A DNA stretch of 64,000 nucleotides, from NCBI RefSeq assembly GCF_013745115.1, contig NZ_CP051151.1, forward strand, positions 930,001-994,000, written 5' to 3'. Below are positions 2 through 41,116 of the stretch, one piece after another. Position numbers and translations under genes: made by a program. The notes under the pieces were generated by a model. That model searched no databases. It was not told where the DNA came from and saw only the letters and a program-made list of their open reading frames with translations. Within the stretch, counting starts at the first letter, position 1; each line of letters starts with the position of its first letter. The stretch comes from Hujiaoplasma nucleasis (GTDB lineage: Bacteria > Bacillota_I > Bacilli_A > Izemoplasmatales > Hujiaoplasmataceae).

Positions 2-1129
2 TGTGATTTAAACGGAAATATCACAAGTGATACACAGCAAACCACTGACCTTAACTCAACTGAAGAAATATTTATTCCGAGTTATTGTGATACCACAAGA
101 GTCAATGGGGTTTATAAATGTACCAAAGAATTCTTTGCTTTTGATACGGTTATTTCTACCACATTCTATATCAATGGTCAAGAAGACTATCAAATCGAAA
201 ATCTATACGATATGGTTGAATCAATCATTTTAGAATATGATAAATTATTTGATCCCTATGAAGCCTTCCCTGACATGAATAATATTTATACCATCAACAA
301 CAGCCAAGGACCAATTGTTATCGATCAAAAATTATATGATGCTATTGAATATGCTTTAGACAATCAAGATATTGACCCTAATAGTGAAGAACTATTATTC
401 AACATTGCTTATGAACCCGTCTTAGAATTATGGCATGATGCCCGATATAGTGAAGATTGTCAAACAGGTTTATTTTATGATTTGTGTCCATTGCCTAGTC
501 AAGAAGACTTAGAAGCAGACTACAATACAAATCCAGATGATATTCTTTTAAATAGAGATGACCAAAGCATCGAATTTTTAAAAGATAATATGGGCTTAGA
601 TTTGGGTGGTTTTGCTAAAGGTTATGTTTCGATGATTATCCAAGATGCTTTAGCAAACTATGATGCTAATTATATTCTAAATCTTGGTGCCTCAAATGTA
701 TTGGTTGCTGGTAAGAACATTTCTAATCCAAGTGCTGATACTTACGCTATTGGAGTTACAAGACCAGATTTTGAATCCTTATCAACATCTTATTATGGTG
801 CAGCTATCATTGAAGACTCTTTTTCAGTAGTAAGTTCTGGATCTTATCAAAGATACTTTAAAAACATTAATGATTTGGATGATGAAACCATCTACCATCA
901 CATCATCGACCCAAGAACTAACCAACCCGGGGGTCAAGCTTTAGCTTTAACCATTATTACGACCAATACAGGACAATCTGATATTTTATCAACTGCAATT
1001 TTCTTAATGGACTTTGACTATGCTTTAGATTATGTCAATAGTGTTGAAGGGCTTGAAGCAATTTGGTACTTCAGTGAAGATGATATTAGAGTATCAGAAA
1101 ATTTCATGGATTATTTTGTTTACTTATAA
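2..1129 (+). CDS. apbE: FAD:protein FMN transferase (ApbE family), 5' end outside window
   Basis: ApbE proteins attach FMN covalently to threonine in flavoprotein subunits and use Mg2+. Family motifs are visible: DLGGFAKGY near 598-625, the SSGSYQRYF segment near 835-855, HHIIDPRTNQPG near 897-932 and SDILST near 978. The frame is open without a stop from base 2, and the residues before the first ATG (212) match the normal N-terminal part of the family (FDTVIST-like). The gene is therefore cut by the window edge and does not start at 212. The missing 5' end would show whether it is an exported lipoprotein. A Gx transporter gene lies convergent on the other side of a shared terminator, a pairing seen near RNF or extracellular electron-transfer loci. 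Confidence 0.9.
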   Translation, partial: CDLNGNITSDTQQTTDLNSTEEIFIPSYCDTTRVNGVYKCTKEFFAFDTVISTTFYINGQEDYQIENLYDMVESIILEYDKLFDPYEAFPDMNNIYTINNSQGPIVIDQKLYDAIEYALDNQDIDPNSEELLFNIAYEPVLELWHDARYSEDCQTGLFYDLCPLPSQEDLEADYNTNPDDILLNRDDQSIEFLKDNMGLDLGGFAKGYVSMIIQDALANYDANYILNLGASNVLVAGKNISNPSADTYAIGVTRPDFESLSTSYYGAAIIEDSFSVVSSGSYQRYFKNINDLDDETIYHHIIDPRTNQPGGQALALTIITTNTGQSDILSTAIFLMDFDYALDYVNSVEGLEAIWYFSEDDIRVSENFMDYFVYL

Positions 1130-32347: not shown

Positions 32348-33397
32348 TTAATCTTTTACAAGATTTAATAATTGGATATTCTTATAAATAACTTCCTTAC
32401 CTACTTGTTCTGATGTTATAAAACCTTCTTTTTCAAGAAGTTTTAAATATTTTGTTGCTGTCGCTCTAGAAATGCCGATATCATCTCTAAAGAATTCGTT
32501 CTTTGTATACATATGAGAAAATAAATGTTCTACTATCTCATACCTATAAATGTCAGGAAGTCTCTTTCTCATTTCACTTTTTGTAAGTTCAATAGATTGA
32601 TTAATTCTTAAAATAAGATCAACAGTATGTTGAGATGTTTCAGAAATACCTTTTAATATGTACATAACGAAATCTTCAATATAAATAAGATTTTCATTAC
32701 ATTTTCTCAATAACTCATAGTATTTATCTTTATACTCAATAATATACTTGCTTAAGTATAAAATAGGTTGGTGAATTTTTTCTTTTAAAACTAAATATAG
32801 GATATTTAATATTCTCCCAGTTCTTCCATTACCATCATAAAATGGATGAATACTTTCAAATTGAAAATGAATGAGCGCTAATTGAATAAGTGGATCATAG
32901 TCTTCATTTTCATTGATAAATATTTCTAAATTTTGCATTAAATCTCTAATCTCGGCTTCTTCTTTCGATGGAGTATGTACAATTTCATTGTTTTTATCGT
33001 TCATAATTACAGTTCCTGGTAACTTTCTAATACCACCTTTGTTTAGCTCAATGATATTTTGAATATCTACGAGAATATTCGTGCTTATAAATCCTTTTTG
33101 CTTAATAAGTTCTAAACCATATTCTATCGCTTTCTTGTAATTAATAACTTCTTTTGGTTTACCACCTAATGGTGTTTTAGTAACAATTTCTTTGAAAATT
33201 TCATCATAAGTAGTAATAATGTTTTCAATTGCAGATGAGTCTTTTGATTCACTTAAATTAATCAAACTTAAAACTACTGCCGGATTAGGCAACAATTTCA
33301 AGATGCCTTTTAATTCACCAATATGATGATTTGCAGCATTTAGTTGTTTAAGTATCTCAACTTTGTTTAGATTGATACTAAAAGGTAATTTGTTCAT
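32348..33397 (-). CDS. Fic family protein with C-terminal winged helix
   Basis: This 349-residue protein has a Fic_N region, an inhibitory-helix motif SSAIEN near residue 54 and the intact catalytic motif HPFYDGNGRTGR near 190. A C-terminal winged-helix domain (about 280-345, GISRATATKYLKLLEKEGFI) follows. This is the common Fic/DUF4172-like regulatory layout, distinct from the N-terminal-HTH Fic at 24546. A promoter between inverted repeats suggests autoregulation through the winged helix. Confidence 0.88.
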   Translation of the reverse strand: MNKLPFSINLNKVEILKQLNAANHHIGELKGILKLLPNPAVVLSLINLSESKDSSAIENIITTYDEIFKEIVTKTPLGGKPKEVINYKKAIEYGLELIKQKGFISTNILVDIQNIIELNKGGIRKLPGTVIMNDKNNEIVHTPSKEEAEIRDLMQNLEIFINENEDYDPLIQLALIHFQFESIHPFYDGNGRTGRILNILYLVLKEKIHQPILYLSKYIIEYKDKYYELLRKCNENLIYIEDFVMYILKGISETSQHTVDLILRINQSIELTKSEMRKRLPDIYRYEIVEHLFSHMYTKNEFFRDDIGISRATATKYLKLLEKEGFITSEQVGKEVIYKNIQLLNLVKD

Positions 33398-34389: not shown

Positions 34390-34989
34390 CTATAAGTTCA
34401 AATATATAATAAATGAAGCGCCAGCAGGTGCGGTAACTTTAAATATTACTGGTAATAATCCAGGAACAGTTATTGCTAAAAACCATGTTAAACCAGCTAA
34501 TGCTGCTACACCAGCAACTATTCCAACTCCTATTAAAACTTTTCTTCCTATAACGCCCCAATCAACACTTTGAACTTTTTCTTTAATATAGTTATATGCA
34601 TTGGCTGCATAATTATATGTCTTAACTGTTGCATAAGCAAATGCATATGGCACAATTCTAATTCCGTGTGTTGTTGTTACAACACCATTAGCTGTTTCAA
34701 AAGAATGACCGTAACCAAAATAAAAACCATTTTCGCTAGTGAGTCCTAATGAGAAGTTTGTTGTGCTTCTTACACCAAACAAATTAAGGATGGATGGCAT
34801 ATTGACAGTGCATACACCACCTTCACATGATGCATCCCATAGTTTATCAATTTCACCTACACTAAATTGGCTTTCAAAGAATCCAAAACCATAATCTATT
34901 TCTGGATTATAATATCTTGATTGTAAATAATACAAGCCTGTATCTTTATCATAGTAATAACCTTTATAGATAAATGGGTTAATGTTCAC
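34390..34989 (-). pseudogene. Orphan Rhs/YD-repeat C-terminal tip
   Basis: The 199-residue frame opens with the end of an Rhs core, NINPFIYKGYYYDKDTGLYY then LQSRYYNPEIDYG. A unique C-terminal domain with two membrane segments (about 148-195) follows. The upstream Rhs shell is missing: the frame meets TAG about 24 nt before the GTG. It is therefore a displaced or truncated polymorphic-toxin tip, either relic or recombination reservoir. The toxin activity is not recognisable. Confidence 0.75.
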
Positions 34990-35313: not shown

Positions 35314-36486
35314 TTAATTGACATTAAAAATTTCTATATCGTCCAGCGGAATTACAGTAAACGTACCAAAATCCGCGCCATTAAACCTTTCGACACCAGT
35401 AGTTATATCCCACAAAGTAATTTCTGTGGATCTCATCTCCGGAAGTGGATTATAATAAGTTGGCCTAAAAGTTTGAAAAGATTGCTTAAAAAGTATACCT
35501 CTATCAAAACCATTCACACCATCGGTATCAGCTGACTCTAGAATATTATTATAGCTTGAATCATATAGAGAGTCAACTATTGAATCATAAATTTCAGTTG
35601 TTGAAAACGAAATTATTCCGGCAGATAAACTACCTAATAATGAACTATAGTTTTTAACCTTATCCATGACTTCAGAAAGTAGTTTAGAACCTGATGTATA
35701 TATCAAATAAGCATATAAAGAATAGATTGTAATTTTTGCATATGGTGTTTCTAATATTTCTTGCATCCATTCTAATGAGGAGTTAATAGGATAAGTCGTA
35801 AATATTAGATCATAGTAATTCAAGGCTTCAGGACTAAAATATATCATTCTTTCTACATAAGATCGATGTCCACTAAGATTATTATAATTACTTATACTAG
35901 CTCTGAAATCATAATTCCATACTATAATACCTTGAAAATCACTTGGTAGAAAAGTAACATTATTAAATTCTACATCTTCATCCTCCGAAATAGGAACAGT
36001 CAACCTATTATCATTGAGAGTGGCGGGTCCATAATAGTCATAGTCATCAAATAGGTCATATTTATAGTTAGTGCAATTTTCTTCAACTATCGGACCTACA
36101 AAGTCAATATTACAATAGTAAGGACCCATATATTCTGTCACATCAACAGTTAAGTATTTTGTTATGGCTCTGTTTCCTGCCAAGTCAATAGCATTGTGCG
36201 CAACAATATAAGTCCCTGGAACATCATCATTCACTTCTCCACTAATAATGCAACTTAGTTGGTTTTTATTATCTGTCACAGAACAAAGAGGCGGAATGTA
36301 ATTGTCCTTCACCGCCTCTAAAGAAATACTGGTCTCACTCAAATGTATTACCGGCTTTATAGTGTCTTCATCAGGGTATGTCGTGCCTCCACCAGTTCCA
36401 TCATCAAAATGATTAACTCCCGCAAAAACACTTGTTGTAGATAATGAAACAAAAATTAACATAAATATTATAAACAATTTTTTCAT
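35314..36486 (-). CDS. Secreted protein with Ig-like domain, unknown
   Basis: This 390-residue protein has a clear signal peptide (MKKLFIIFMLIFVSLSTTSV, then FAG). A bacterial Ig-like domain of the DUF5011 kind follows at about 40-120 (CSVTDNKNQL, GTYIVAHNAIDLAGNRA), and then a unique region rich in Tyr and Asp. It has no anchor motif. No ribosome site lies close to the ATG; the nearest AAAGGAG is about 36 nt upstream. It may be a surface or toxin-associated protein. Confidence 0.7.
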   Translation of the reverse strand: MKKLFIIFMLIFVSLSTTSVFAGVNHFDDGTGGGTTYPDEDTIKPVIHLSETSISLEAVKDNYIPPLCSVTDNKNQLSCIISGEVNDDVPGTYIVAHNAIDLAGNRAITKYLTVDVTEYMGPYYCNIDFVGPIVEENCTNYKYDLFDDYDYYGPATLNDNRLTVPISEDEDVEFNNVTFLPSDFQGIIVWNYDFRASISNYNNLSGHRSYVERMIYFSPEALNYYDLIFTTYPINSSLEWMQEILETPYAKITIYSLYAYLIYTSGSKLLSEVMDKVKNYSSLLGSLSAGIISFSTTEIYDSIVDSLYDSSYNNILESADTDGVNGFDRGILFKQSFQTFRPTYYNPLPEMRSTEITLWDITTGVERFNGADFGTFTVIPLDDIEIFNVN

Positions 36487-36606: not shown

Positions 36607-36915
36607 TCAATTATAATTATTGAGTTGTTCTTTTAACTCTTTTAGAATTTCATAACTTTTATAATGTGCATCCTTTGAAACAACATAATCACTAGATTCT
36701 ATTACATCAATTTTCTTTGAATACCAGTCCACTAAATAACTGACTAATTTTTCAAGTAATTGTTTGTCACTAGGATATTCAATACTCAATATTTGTTTTG
36801 CATAGCTTTTAATAAAATTATCATTTGTGTATTGAATAATAGTTTGCGATATACCTTCTAATTCAATTCTTATGATTTCTTCAATATTCATTTGTTTTTT
36901 TAAATGAAAAATCAA
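36607..36915 (-). CDS. Unknown helical protein
   Basis: This protein of up to 102 residues is helix-rich and charged (EEIIRIELEGISQTIIQYT and EILKELKEQLNNYN), with no recognised family. The start is uncertain: TTG at 36915 or ATG at 36891, and neither has a good ribosome site. It lies just beyond the terminator of the exported-peptide gene. Confidence 0.5.
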   Translation of the reverse strand: MIFHLKKQMNIEEIIRIELEGISQTIIQYTNDNFIKSYAKQILSIEYPSDKQLLEKLVSYLVDWYSKKIDVIESSDYVVSKDAHYKSYEILKELKEQLNNYN

Positions 36916-36924
36916 AAGCGAAAA

Positions 36925-36942
36925 CGTAGATAAATATCTACG
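36925..36942 (-). terminator. Hairpin terminator after the exported-peptide gene
   Basis: CGTAGATA and TATCTACG face each other across two bases and are followed by TTTT on the minus strand. It separates the 44-residue peptide gene from the rest of the cluster. Confidence 0.65.
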
Positions 36943-36963: not shown

Positions 36964-37098
36964 CTATTGTGATCCGATATCTACTTCTTCATAATCAATA
37001 TCATCAAAACCATCAGCTTGTATAGTAATTTGATTCGAAAAAGCAAAAGCGAAAAAACTAAAGAATAAGATTGCAAGTATCGCTATTCTCTTTTTCAT
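36964..37098 (-). CDS. 44-residue exported peptide, candidate signalling pro-peptide
   Basis: ATG 37098 has a perfect GGAGG 5 nt upstream. The product starts MKKRIAILAILFFSFFAFAF, a Sec-type signal peptide, and ends with an acidic tail (QADGFDDIDYEEVDIGSQ). It is divergent from an HTH/TPR regulator, 87 bp apart, with a palindrome in the shared promoter. That is the layout of PlcR-PapR and related RRNPP cell-cell signalling pairs. The acidic tail differs from the hydrophobic peptides of many such systems. A bacteriocin or small secreted factor is an alternative. Confidence 0.6.
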   Translation of the reverse strand: MKKRIAILAILFFSFFAFAFSNQITIQADGFDDIDYEEVDIGSQ

Positions 37099-37100
37099 TT

Positions 37101-37139
37101 TTGCCTCCTTGTGAGTTTATGTTATAATATAAACATAAA
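37101..37139. promoter_or_regulatory. Divergent promoter with 8-bp-arm palindrome
   Basis: TTTATGTT (37116-37123) and AACATAAA (37132-37139) form a perfect palindrome with an 8-bp centre. The plus-strand TATAAT (37123-37128) lies inside it, with TTGCCT (37101-37106) as -35. On the minus strand TATATT or TATAAC is available but no -35 box is seen, as expected for an activated promoter. The TATG-N12-CATA form recalls, but does not equal, the PlcR box. Confidence 0.65.
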
Positions 37140-37185
37140 TTCGCATAGGACCTGAGAGTTCCGTTTTTCAAAAAGTGAGGTAGCC

Positions 37186-38127
37186 ATGGATAGGATAAGA
37201 CAACAATATATGTTTCACCTAGACAATATTAGACTCAAAAAAAACATCACAATAAAGGAACTCTGTGATGGCATATGCGACGATCGTCAATATAGAAAAT
37301 ACAGAAGCGGAGATAATAATATAAGTGACATTAGACTTCTTGAGTTCTGTGAAAAATTAGGAATTAGCTCTAGAGATTTTTATTACACATTAAATGAAAA
37401 AGATGAATATGATTTTAATCTTCTTAAAGAACTTTATAATTTAATTGTAAATCATAAGTTCTCTGATGCGAAGAAAATCCTAGACAAAGGATTTAAATAT
37501 TCATACTTAACTATTCAAAATAAACGACTACTAGAATATTGTAAGATAAGATTTTTCTATACACAAAAAGAATACAAAGGTGACCAAGCAGTAGAAGAGA
37601 TCAGTAAGAACATTAACATTCAAGAATGTTGTAAGAAAGAAATTTTTGATTTTGTGGATGTGTTATTCTTTCTATTGTTAGCAGAAATCCAAGTAAAGAC
37701 AGAGAAGGTTCAAGCTTTAAATCAGTTAATTAAAATTCTAAATAATCCAAACCACTTATATTTAAGTCCGGAAAAAAGGGATTTGATAGCCCCTATATAT
37801 TCAAATGTATCTATAATGCTTGGAAAACTTAATAGGTTCAATGACCTACTAAGGATTAACTCTTTAGGCATTGAATACTGTATTAAGAATTCCTTCTCAA
37901 AATCACTGACAAAATTATATCAGACAAGAGCTTTAGCTTTATATAAACTTGAAAGGTTCTCAGAAGCTGATGAATTCATAGCAAAATCCTTATCTAATTC
38001 AATATCCATAGAAAGTATTGAAGCAAACCATAAACTTTTCAAGCAACTTGTTAAGGATTTTAATAAAAATCCATTTGAAGTCCTCAATGAATATTTCATA
38101 AGAAAAAAAGAAGAAATCAATATGTGA
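37186..38127 (+). CDS. HTH-TPR regulator, RRNPP-like (Rgg/PlcR type)
   Basis: This 313-residue protein has a degenerate XRE-type HTH in residues 5-65 (ITIKELCDGICDDRQYRKYR then SGDNNISDIRLLEFCEKLGI). About 230 residues of helical hairpins follow, with TPR-like repeats (for example KLYQTRALALYKLERFSEAD near 245). This is the architecture and size of Rgg, PlcR and PrgX peptide receptors. It starts at ATG with GAGG upstream and is followed by a strong terminator. Binding of the palindrome and of the exported peptide is inferred. Confidence 0.75.
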   Translation: MDRIRQQYMFHLDNIRLKKNITIKELCDGICDDRQYRKYRSGDNNISDIRLLEFCEKLGISSRDFYYTLNEKDEYDFNLLKELYNLIVNHKFSDAKKILDKGFKYSYLTIQNKRLLEYCKIRFFYTQKEYKGDQAVEEISKNINIQECCKKEIFDFVDVLFFLLLAEIQVKTEKVQALNQLIKILNNPNHLYLSPEKRDLIAPIYSNVSIMLGKLNRFNDLLRINSLGIEYCIKNSFSKSLTKLYQTRALALYKLERFSEADEFIAKSLSNSISIESIEANHKLFKQLVKDFNKNPFEVLNEYFIRKKEEINM

Positions 38128-38139
38128 TTTCTTCTTTTT
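38108..38139. terminator. Bidirectional intrinsic terminator
   Basis: A 12-bp stem (38108-38119 with 38125-38136) with a 5-nt loop lies between T- and A-runs. It overlaps the regulator stop and also follows the minus-strand operon ending at 38152. Confidence 0.88.
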
Positions 38140-38151
38140 GAATGAAGTTAG

Positions 38152-38937
38152 CTAAATTTCAGAACTAACCATATGTTTTGAGTTATATTGAATTGTTTCT
38201 ATGCTTAACTTATTCAATTCATAAATGATAACTTTTGGTAAGTCTTGCTTCTTCCTATCAGAAAGTTCAAAATAACTAAATGGCTTATACCATATCAGAT
38301 AATCTGCATTACTATTCTTAATTGCCTCAACCATTATTTTATCAGCCCAAAAACAATGTGGCTTTCCTAGCAATGTTGTTCCTAACTCAACATTAATTTT
38401 TTCATGACTATACTCTTCAAAGTATATCCCTGAAGATTCATCTAGAACAAAAAATATTAATTTATATCCTGGATGATTCTTTTTGTAATAAGTGACTTTC
38501 TTTGCATGCTTTGAGATAACTCTATTAAAATTTTCTCTATATCTAGTAAAGTTATGATCTTCTTCTAAAGGCAATCCACTATCACCAAAGAGAAAAACTT
38601 GTTTTAGATTAGGAAAGTTACCTTCTACACCCAAATCCCTTAATTGTCTTAACATTTTGTTTTCCTTAGCCTTTGTTACATGAGTCTTACCTTTATTGGT
38701 TGCTTGGTCATCAAATCTCATGACTTCCATCATTAGTTTTAAATCATCATTGTAAAAATCTGGTGGAGGATCTGATTTTAAAGAACTATTTTCCCATGTT
38801 TTCCAGATATCTTCATCATTAGTCGCTTGAAAAATATCCCATACATCATCAGATTCAGGGAATGCTAGTGGACGATTATCATGACAGCGGTAATAATCTA
38901 GAATATTTTCTTCGTTATCAAAAGTAAACTTTCTCAT
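38152..38937 (-). CDS. Unknown protein in Pycsar-type operon
   Basis: I do not recognise this 261-residue soluble protein. It is rich in charged and aromatic residues, with no signal peptide or membrane segment. Notable strings are HDNRPLAFPESDDVWDIFQ at the start, KLIFFVLDESSGIYFEEY near 165 and ADYLIWYKPFSYFELSDR near 215. It begins 6 nt after the PycTM-like gene, so it is almost certainly cotranscribed with the cyclase-effector pair. It may be an accessory or second effector. Confidence 0.6.
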   Translation of the reverse strand: MRKFTFDNEENILDYYRCHDNRPLAFPESDDVWDIFQATNDEDIWKTWENSSLKSDPPPDFYNDDLKLMMEVMRFDDQATNKGKTHVTKAKENKMLRQLRDLGVEGNFPNLKQVFLFGDSGLPLEEDHNFTRYRENFNRVISKHAKKVTYYKKNHPGYKLIFFVLDESSGIYFEEYSHEKINVELGTTLLGKPHCFWADKIMVEAIKNSNADYLIWYKPFSYFELSDRKKQDLPKVIIYELNKLSIETIQYNSKHMVSSEI

Positions 38938-38943
38938 TCTACT

Positions 38944-39468
38944 TTAACCCGCTAGTAACATTAAGACAATAGTCAAAGGTATTAGTGCTATACCATACTT
39001 CAAAGCATCATTAAAATATCTCATTTTACTTATAGCAATCTTTGAGTTGATTGATATTTGAGAGAGAATCATTTCACGGGCTTTTTTTTCATCAACTTCC
39101 TTAGTTTCTTTAATAAAATCTTCATCATCCATTTCTGCAATTGATACAAAAGAGAATAGATTATCAGAAAAAATATCAACATTCTTTGTTCTTGCTATAA
39201 AAACAGATACTAAATTGAAGATTGTCAATCCAAGAATCACTAAATATGCCAAACCAAATACAATAACTATTGTAATTAGAGGTATACTTCCATTAACCAA
39301 TAATTCAGATAGTTTTCCATATGTACTAGCAGATAAGCCAACAATCAATCCAATAAATGCTACTAAAATAGAAGTTTTACTATCAGCTGCTCTTATCCAT
39401 GAGTTTACTATCTCGAGCATTCTTAATGAAGTTTCCTTATCAAATACATTCTCTACTCTATTTCCCAT
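38944..39468 (-). CDS. pycTM: PycTM-like membrane effector (Pycsar)
   Basis: Pycsar effectors sense a cyclic pyrimidine nucleotide made by a phage-triggered cyclase and damage the membrane. This 174-residue protein has the family pattern LEIVNSWIRAADSKTSILVA at about 17-36, membrane segments near 30-50 and 62-88, a cytosolic linker, and a C-terminal hydrophobic segment (152-172). It overlaps the cyclase gene by 16 nt, with AAGGAGG inside it. The family call rests on motif and context. Confidence 0.75.
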   Translation of the reverse strand: MGNRVENVFDKETSLRMLEIVNSWIRAADSKTSILVAFIGLIVGLSASTYGKLSELLVNGSIPLITIVIVFGLAYLVILGLTIFNLVSVFIARTKNVDIFSDNLFSFVSIAEMDDEDFIKETKEVDEKKAREMILSQISINSKIAISKMRYFNDALKYGIALIPLTIVLMLLAG

Positions 39469-40127
39469 GTTGCCTCCTTTATAATATATGTGTTTGGCAT
39501 GCTTGTTTGATATGGTTCACAGTACTCTTTAAACTTCTTATTTAAATGATCATATGTTTTAGAGTCAATTATTACTTGATTCTTTTCAGCTAATCCACAA
39601 AATTTTGATGCATAGTTTGTAATATCGCTCGGATAGGCCACTTCGCTACCATTATCAGTAGTTAATCTTGTTACATATACATGACCCGTACGAATCCCTA
39701 TTCCGCAACTTATTTCCCACTCTTTACTCAACAACGGATTCATCGATTCAGCTATATAAGTATGAATACTGAGTGCAGTATAAACTGCTCGTTGTCCTGA
39801 ATTTCCAGTTGAATCATTCGTAAAAGCACATAAAATGCCATCACCAACAATTTGTAAAATCATACCATTATTTTCATTAATCGCTTTCTTACAAAGTTTG
39901 GTATACATTTGATATATTTTTACCATTGTTTTTCGCCCAACTGTACTAGATAGAACTGTTGAACTTCTTATATCTATAAACATCAAGGATGTTTCAATAT
40001 TATATACTTTTTTACCACTTGGAATCTGATTTCGGTCCAAAAATCCGTTCTGATTAGTAACTTCAATCTTTCTGTCATAGATTTGTTTTAATTCATTTTT
40101 TAAAGAATCTAATTCATTCTGTTTCAT
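39453..40127 (-). CDS. pycC: Class III nucleotide cyclase, PycC-like (Pycsar)
   Basis: This 224-residue single-domain class III cyclase has both metal-binding aspartates (LMFIDIRSSTVLS near residue 48 and QIVGDGILCAF near 92) and an IGIRTGHVYV segment near 140. Stand-alone cyclases of this size next to a PycTM gene define Pycsar anti-phage systems, which make cCMP or cUMP. Which base is used cannot be read here. It lies 17 nt after a multi-TM gene and has a GGAGG site. Confidence 0.82.
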   Translation of the reverse strand: MKQNELDSLKNELKQIYDRKIEVTNQNGFLDRNQIPSGKKVYNIETSLMFIDIRSSTVLSSTVGRKTMVKIYQMYTKLCKKAINENNGMILQIVGDGILCAFTNDSTGNSGQRAVYTALSIHTYIAESMNPLLSKEWEISCGIGIRTGHVYVTRLTTDNGSEVAYPSDITNYASKFCGLAEKNQVIIDSKTYDHLNKKFKEYCEPYQTSMPNTYIIKEATWEIE

Positions 40128-40144
40128 AATAACCTCCTTTACTA

Positions 40145-41116
40145 TTAACGACTGCTAGTTCTTTTTCTAGGTCGTCTTACAACTATATTTGTAGATTTCT
40201 TAAAGTTATTTATTGTATAAAGAAACAGTGGAATAAATACTGAAGTTATTATCCATTTAACAACTCCAAGAGTTTGCAAATACATCGTTCTTTCTATTTC
40301 GGTCATAAAACTTAAGTCATAATCAGTTATATACAATATTCCAAAAAAACAAGAAGCAATAAATATAAATAATAACTGATGTAACCTAATTATTTTATGA
40401 TTACTCGTATTCTTTGTAAAAATATTTTTTATACGAATAACCAGTGCAAAAATGTTTGTAATCAGTAATGCATAAAATAACATTGGAATGATGATTGAAA
40501 GCAAGTTGTTAAGTGTGATATCCCACTCAAAAGGTACCAAAACCATACTATTTACTTCTAATGGATACCCAAAAGCAGCTAGAAAAACTAGCAAACTTAG
40601 CATAGAAAATTGTATTGCATCCATAATTAATATTCTTTGTTGCCTCTTCTTGTCAACTTTAGCTAGCCTTAGTAAGCCAAAACCTAAGAGAAACATAATT
40701 ATTTTAAAAGCAAATAGAAATAAAACTGCATATAATAGTCCAAAGTAAATTGCTATAAGAGTTGTTCCCCATATGCTTGCAGTGGGAATTCCTATGCACA
40801 ATATAATAATTGCTAATCCAATACCAATCAATATTATTGCACCAATTAAATTAAGAGCAAATAATAGCAAATCTAAAACGCAATCCCATATTCTTTGTAA
40901 TAAACTGCGCTTCTTTTCTTGTGTCTCTTCAGTACCTTCATTTAGATCTTCTACTAGCTCTTGTTTCTTATTTTTCTCTGGAACTGAATTTTTAATTTTC
41001 TGAATAAAATCTTTAAAACTCGATATTTTAAATACTCTCAAATAGAATTTTACATTACCAATAAATAAAAGGACAAAATCTATTGATATTAAAACAATTA
41101 ATCCTACGTTCAACAT
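40145..41116 (-). CDS. Multi-TM membrane protein of the Pycsar-type operon
   Basis: This 323-residue protein has one N-terminal membrane segment, a charged cytosolic loop (about 30-75, QELVEDLNEGTEETQEKKRS), then six or so further segments and a basic tail (VVRRPRKRTSSR). No family is recognised. It is the first gene of the operon and lies 17 nt before the cyclase. It could be a sensor, a second membrane effector or unrelated. A GAGGTG ribosome site is present. Confidence 0.65.
   Translation of the reverse strand: MLNVGLIVLISIDFVLLFIGNVKFYLRVFKISSFKDFIQKIKNSVPEKNKKQELVEDLNEGTEETQEKKRSLLQRIWDCVLDLLLFALNLIGAIILIGIGLAIIILCIGIPTASIWGTTLIAIYFGLLYAVLFLFAFKIIMFLLGFGLLRLAKVDKKRQQRILIMDAIQFSMLSLLVFLAAFGYPLEVNSMVLVPFEWDITLNNLLSIIIPMLFYALLITNIFALVIRIKNIFTKNTSNHKIIRLHQLLFIFIASCFFGILYITDYDLSFMTEIERTMYLQTLGVVKWIITSVFIPLFLYTINNFKKSTNIVVRRPRKRTSSR

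Follow-up and report, generated by a model that had tools for sequence, protein, structure and literature searches.

The question raised by two divergent genes of Hujiaoplasma nucleasis is whether a small exported peptide and the regulator encoded beside it form a signalling module and, if so, what that module would control. The pair lies in the window, a stretch of 64,000 nucleotides (positions 930001–994000) of a single-contig, 1.81-Mb genome. A 44-residue propeptide (MKKRIAILAILFFSFFAFAFSNQITIQADGFDDIDYEEVDIGSQ; 36964–37098, minus strand) begins with K/R residues, continues with a hydrophobic core and ends in an acidic tail, and a Shine-Dalgarno sequence, GGAGG, can be read ahead of it at 37104–37108 of the same strand. 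Across a gap of 87 bp, the plus strand encodes a 313-residue regulator (37186–38127) with an N-terminal HTH_3 domain and an all-helical, TPR-like C-terminal domain of the RRNPP fold; a hairpin at the 3′ end of its gene (38105–38139) is terminator-like on the minus strand. The original prediction had described the 44-codon frame with its GGAGG, signal-peptide-type start and acidic tail, and the divergent 313-codon HTH and helical-repeat frame 87 bp away, and all of these are present. Its reading of them as an RRNPP-type regulator–peptide pair is largely right, in view of a PlcR/Rgg/ComR-like profile and fold and a conserved divergent exported peptide.

We consider it highly probable that the locus is a self-contained RRNPP-type peptide quorum-sensing module with positive feedback. 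In our model, the propeptide would leave the cell through the Sec pathway, and cleavage by signal peptidase I would set free an acidic peptide of about DGFDDIDYEEVDIGSQ or a fragment of it, which an oligopeptide permease would return to the cell. The imported peptide would bind the divergent HTH regulator at its TPR domain, and the peptide-loaded dimer would bind an inverted repeat at about −43 and activate, as a class II activator, a propeptide promoter that has no −35 element. Activation would result both in positive feedback and in read-through into the SpbK-NTD-like gene that lies behind the propeptide.

The assignment of the regulator draws on several comparisons. HTH_3 covers residues 15–64 (E 1.4e-4, slightly under the cut-off for the window protein) and was matched in 12 of 42 family members. 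A nine-sequence profile run against the PDB found PlcR (2qfc, E 2e-6, positions 1–269) and Rgg (4yv6, 2e-6) and also recovered MutR and ElrR-type regulators. The TPR peptide-receptor fold proposed earlier for this protein was borne out by structure prediction: the AF2 model (pLDDT 83, pTM 0.69) has as its top Foldseek matches PlcR–PapR–DNA, PlcR–PapR, ComR, Rgg2, Rgg3 and PrgX, with a probability of 1.00, an E-value of 1e-6 for PlcR 3u3w and TM-scores near 0.55. As judged from this model, the 313-residue regulator is a member of the RRNPP receptor class. To our knowledge, an XRE-type N-terminal HTH is a criterion for that class and is absent only in Rap; the window pair has the HTH, the TPR-like superhelix and the adjacent exported-propeptide gene.

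The regulator is found in 50 of 90 genomes of the order. Its nearest named relatives (80–81% identity) come from metagenome-assembled genomes labelled Candidatus Izemoplasmatales, Tenericutes and Bacillota, homologues in those genus relatives with a match reach at most ~25% identity, and its own genome holds one distant paralogue (20% identity). An origin on a phage or plasmid was considered and rejected: neither the regulator nor the third protein of the cassette matched phage records, the sister-clade regulator L034 matched nothing in plasmid records, and viral contigs gave no match.

Is the small exported ORF a constant companion of the regulator? The order supplied 76 full-length, non-duplicate regulators, of which five lie too near a contig end, leaving 71 assessable. 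A divergent exported peptide ORF, with export judged by hydropathy, accompanies 52 of the 76, and 51 of these stand at 70–120 bp; the remaining peptide (L025) had been missed by the filter, having no N-terminal lysine. Eight regulators that have no peptide of their own are second receptors in two-receptor cassettes, and about ten have no recognisable one. The nearby exported small ORFs looked for beside homologues thus occur, within the order, at 52 of 71 assessable loci; of 20 loci fetched from other families of the class, at least 17 also carry one. Such ORF pairs exceed chance, because a divergent exported ORF with a Shine-Dalgarno site 40–125 bp upstream accompanies 53 of 85 regulator copies and 0 of 152 control genes (other genes of ≥200 aa in the same loci). 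The propeptide is divergent in all paired systems. In six loci (L065, L066, L069, L072, L074 and L076) one propeptide and an SpbK-NTD-like gene sit between two receptors; this arrangement is fixed, and the cassette always adjoins trpS (MKRILSGIQPTGS).

The three closest orthologues (L007–L009) have a 44-aa ORF of the same length ending DGFDDVDLEEVVIESQ, and the own-genome paralogue faces a divergent, exported 112-aa ORF built of GFEDDDFPDFVNI repeats. For the window peptide by itself, the signal of coding selection is weak (pN/pS 0.6, from few sites). A candidate signal peptidase I site, IQA followed by D, would leave a 16-residue acidic peptide. In most window-clade peptides the tail is preceded by [VI]-x-A and then D, E, G or A, which by inference is likely the signal peptidase I site of the clade. 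Two SBP_bac_5 (OppA-like) proteins and a single M50 protease are encoded in the genome, which could allow for import and processing. The two SBP_bac_5 proteins (L080 and L081) lie in very long frames of 1114 and 1998 aa, whose length suggests fused or unusually large oligopeptide-binding proteins.

The intergenic region contains two inverted repeats, either of which could be a binding site. A perfect palindrome, TTTATGTT-N8-AACATAAA, had been reported between the genes and is indeed there (37116–37139), overlapping both −10 elements. It occurs once in the genome, and by our own estimate ~0.1 perfect 8-bp inverted repeats would be expected in 87 bp of AT-rich DNA. Among the three 80%-identical orthologues it is perfect in L009, through a paired, compensating change, and mismatched in L007 and L008; it is missing from the aligned intergenic regions of more distant relatives. 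This palindrome is probably not the family operator and was rejected as such, since it is not kept past close orthologues and overlaps the peptide −10. The plus-strand −10 box predicted within it was recovered by a promoter scan as the TATAAT of TTGCCT-16-TATAAT (37101–37128, plus strand), a TG-extended candidate regulator promoter with 10 of 12 matches, a level at which chance matches are common. Scanning of the minus strand found no sigma-70 −35/−10 pair for the peptide, which agrees with the earlier observation that the peptide side has no −35. What is present there is a −10-like hexamer, TAACAT (37119–37124, minus strand; family consensus TAnnAT), at a fixed spacing from the second inverted repeat.

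This second repeat, AGGACCTGAGAGTTCC (37147–37162), is our candidate operator and is centred at about −43 from the propeptide start site. Aligned intergenic regions of the window clade have an AGGACC-N-GGTCC type site in a constant place, and palindromy is retained in relatives through paired changes (GGGCC/GGCCC, GGCCC/GGGCC, GGAAC/GTTCC and TGCCA/TGGCA). Sister clades have CATATATG-type palindromes, e.g. GGTCATATATGACC and CGACATATATGTCG. Measured from TAnnAT, the operator centre lies exactly 31 bp away in 29 of 39 regions and 30 bp away in 17 of 21 (46 of 60 in total), a concentration that was reached by none of 2000 shuffles. From these alignments, the operator is more likely to be AGGACC...GTTCC at about −43 than the TTTATGTT palindrome. 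An operator located some 43 bp upstream of the start, at a promoter with no −35, points to class II activation of the peptide promoter.

It is also conceivable, though we think it unlikely, that the peptide signals by releasing a receptor that acts as a repressor (or as a basal DNA binder), so that the loop works by derepression. Some Rgg and PrgX receptors do repress, and HD-GYP-clade regions contain a second, long palindrome that overlaps the −10 region of the peptide, as the palindrome at 37116–37139 does in the window. The most conserved operator, however, is the one at about −43, and its spacing to a promoter lacking a −35 is fixed to 1 bp, an arrangement typical of class II activation. 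A somewhat smaller chance attaches to the reading that the repeat at 37147–37162 and the TTTTT that follows it act not as a DNA operator but as an attenuator, an RNA hairpin in the leader of the regulator. On the regulator strand the stem is rich in GC and has a T run after it, which, together with the paired changes in the clade, would fit such a hairpin, but the sister clades have their CATATATG palindromes at the same position with no GC-rich hairpin, and the fixed spacing is that to the −10 of the propeptide, which is on the opposite strand.

If the regulator activates from this operator, as we favor, its targets would be few. No further exact copy of the window operator exists in the genome, and the one site with two mismatches falls within the count for controls. 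The operator being unique, the regulon is probably local and its target the regulator's own operon. A global regulon was rejected for lack of a second exact copy, and the direct control proposed earlier for the Rhs and secreted genes beyond the cassette finds no support except by way of read-through.

The propeptides themselves indicate what the signal may be. In 19 of 51, the tail consists of directly abutting acidic units of 13–14 aa (18 aa in one), with up to 10 complete copies and 11 or more in one contig-truncated propeptide; the L034 propeptide has nine copies of DFDDRDEPEFINI. Units of the same gene differ from one another at 44% of synonymous sites and at 0.8% of non-synonymous sites (pN/pS ~0.02). 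The units thus differ in DNA and are identical in protein, and therefore each unit is held constant by selection at the protein level. Their common pattern is approximately [DG]-F-D-D-x-D-[LFY]-P-E-[FLY]-[VI]. When the window tail, GFDDIDYEEVDIG, was compared with composition-preserving shuffles, 108 of 20000 fit the pattern as well (p ~0.005); the orthologue tail fits better (22 of 20000, p ~0.001). The motif is common to receptors that are only ~20% identical. Receptor and peptide distances are correlated (Mantel r 0.45, 0 of 5000 permutations), in agreement with the tree and paired descent, and this correlation may reflect shared descent only. Known mature RRNPP pheromones are 5–8 aa, and the unit here, at 13–16 aa, is longer. 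The acidic character, which had been called unlike that of most known peptides, is in fact a family rule, and the D-x-P-E-F/Y/L core resembles PapR7 ADLPFEF (PMC6568020).

The repeated units also bear on a different reading, namely that the cell exports the acidic peptide as an effector (a bacteriocin-like, ion-binding or surface peptide) and that the HTH/TPR protein is its local regulator, which senses something else. Repeated acidic units of 13–14 aa are unusual among RRNPP pheromones, and no dibasic or other obvious processing site was found between them. Against this, the receptor class is one that binds exported peptides, the motif is common to divergent receptors, and the single-copy forms, at ~43 aa, are of ordinary propeptide size; we regard an effector role as quite improbable. 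A toxin–antitoxin-like pair, or a chance small ORF beside an XRE regulator, is very hard to credit even though a small hydrophobic ORF next to an HTH gene is a common layout, given that the layout occurs in 0 of 152 control genes, that the tandem units are under strong purifying selection and that the geometry is constant over genera and families.

Returning to the peptide-activated module, one output would be the third cassette gene (36607–36891, minus strand), which lies directly behind the propeptide and encodes 94 aa from an ATG or 102 aa from an upstream TTG at 36915. There is no clear Shine-Dalgarno sequence before the ATG, and a terminator-like hairpin (36925–36942, minus strand), present also in L007–L009, separates it from the propeptide. 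Pfam and NCBIfam gave nothing credible for this protein. Its profile matches SpbK (PDB 9phb, E 4e-16) and the PADLOC spbK model (E 1e-11), and it is confidently modelled as a four-helix bundle (pLDDT 93). The fold search against the PDB gave no match with an E-value under 0.29; the likely reason is that the N-terminal domain is missing from the SpbK filament model (PMC12847820). In SpbK, that domain is a four-helix bundle and docks on the phage portal YonE, at the portal's clip domain, by means of F69 and F71 in the helix 3–4 loop (PMC12847820, PMC11984713). Judged from homology and predicted fold, the third gene is a stand-alone homologue of this portal-binding domain. It aligns with SpbK of ICEBs1 from B. 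subtilis over 89 of 92 positions, the portal-contact loop included (PMC12847820, PMC11984713), and differs in standing alone, encoded behind a pheromone gene. The loop is kept in the family, as EFVFN..H in several members and DYVVS in the window. Homologues are located behind 32 of the paired peptides examined, and there are 68 stand-alone copies in 48 of 90 genomes; none of the 68 is fused to a TIR domain, so that the C-terminal TIR NADase of SpbK is lacking. Behind the third gene, L007 has a conserved 90-aa protein (MPVYSVSYDLNSPGQKYQ...; 424–693, minus strand) with equivalents in L008 and L009 and no family match.

A different neighbor is seen in two clades with DFDD peptides, where the first co-directional gene 3′ of the receptor encodes a c-di-GMP enzyme in 18 sister loci (within L010, L012, L014, L017–L019 and L027–L047). 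Six are of the HD-GYP type (HD_5), among them that of the window genome's own paralogue, and 12 have GGDEF and/or EAL domains. As a tentative possibility, quorum sensing in the Izemoplasmatales lineage may switch on a stand-alone SpbK-NTD-like sensor of phage portals and so raise antiphage defence with cell density, and sister modules with the same receptor type may control c-di-GMP enzymes by means of tandem-array pheromones.

How does this module compare with known systems? PlcR–PapR of the Bacillus cereus group shares the HTH and TPR fold, PlcR being the top match in the profile and Foldseek searches, as well as an exported propeptide with a similar acidic D-L-P core (PapR7 ADLPFEF; PMC6568020). 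However, papR is downstream of plcR and co-directional, whereas the propeptide here is divergent; the global regulator PlcR uses a TATGNANNNNTNCATA box, whereas the operator here is another one and occurs once in the genome; and identity to PlcR is ~15–18%. The streptococcal Rgg–SHP systems are alike in their divergent layout, small local regulon, activator-type promoter and homologous receptor fold, but SHPs are short hydrophobic peptides, unlike a Sec-type signal peptide with an acidic tail. Tandem copies, common here, are not present in Rgg and ComR propeptides (PMC9765709). Several signal copies per exported propeptide are a feature of tandem Rap–Phr, NprR and PlcR propeptides (PMC11343458, PMC9765709), where the maxima are 6 to 8 copies with spacers in the studied cases (PMC9765709, PMC11343458), as against up to 10 complete, abutting copies here.

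Because the pair departs from PlcR in layout and operator and from Rgg–SHP in peptide type, it is best filed as an RRNPP-type receptor–propeptide pair of a new subfamily, with predicted peptide binding, outside the taxa of earlier surveys. One of these places nearly all of the family in Bacillus and Streptococcus (PMC9765709), and another covered complete Firmicutes genomes and propeptides of up to 100 aa (PMC10075063); the texts of the RRNPP surveys, which deal with Bacillales/Lactobacillales or complete Firmicutes, name no Mollicutes, Tenericutes or Acholeplasma. Our search, which covered part of the literature, found no earlier report in which peptide pheromones are tied to Izemoplasma or Mollicutes, or c-di-GMP enzymes to RRNPP. 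With this family, peptide quorum sensing reaches a sister lineage of wall-less bacteria as well as several further families of the class, and the links to c-di-GMP (18 sister loci) and to phage-portal sensing suggest outputs undescribed for RRNPP in the papers found. Tandem units that are identical in protein and different in DNA mark the signal sequence with no need of an experiment, which makes receptor specificity testable with synthetic 13-mers, and the fixed operator offers a ready reporter.

The surroundings of the cassette are also of some interest. A Fic protein (32348–33397, minus strand) matches the PADLOC SoFic model (E 1e-95), and for this reason the area resembles a defence island. 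On the other side of the pair, a PycTM effector (PADLOC E 3e-26) overlaps a Pycsar-type cyclase, PycC (E 3e-30; 38944–40127, minus strand), flanked by ORFs of 261 aa (38152–38937) and 323 aa (membrane; 40145–41116) with no family match; the PycC/PycTM pair also neighbors the orthologous pair in L009, with gene order kept. Within ~41000–64000, phage tail- or fibre-like genes at 43–46 kb may belong to a prophage adjoining the cassette. Downstream of the cassette are a secreted Ig-like protein (35314–36486, minus strand) and an Rhs-like C-terminal fragment (34390–34989, minus strand), which has the core motif GYYYDKDTGLYYLQSRYYNP by eye and no Pfam hit. The orthologous locus of L009 has a 1671-aa RHS-repeat protein there. 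Rhs/YD-repeat and HNH proteins are among the genes further out in the window clade, and small HNH nuclease-like proteins are encoded near the cassette in L026 (3016–3297), L036 (3025–3306) and L059 (2971–3273).
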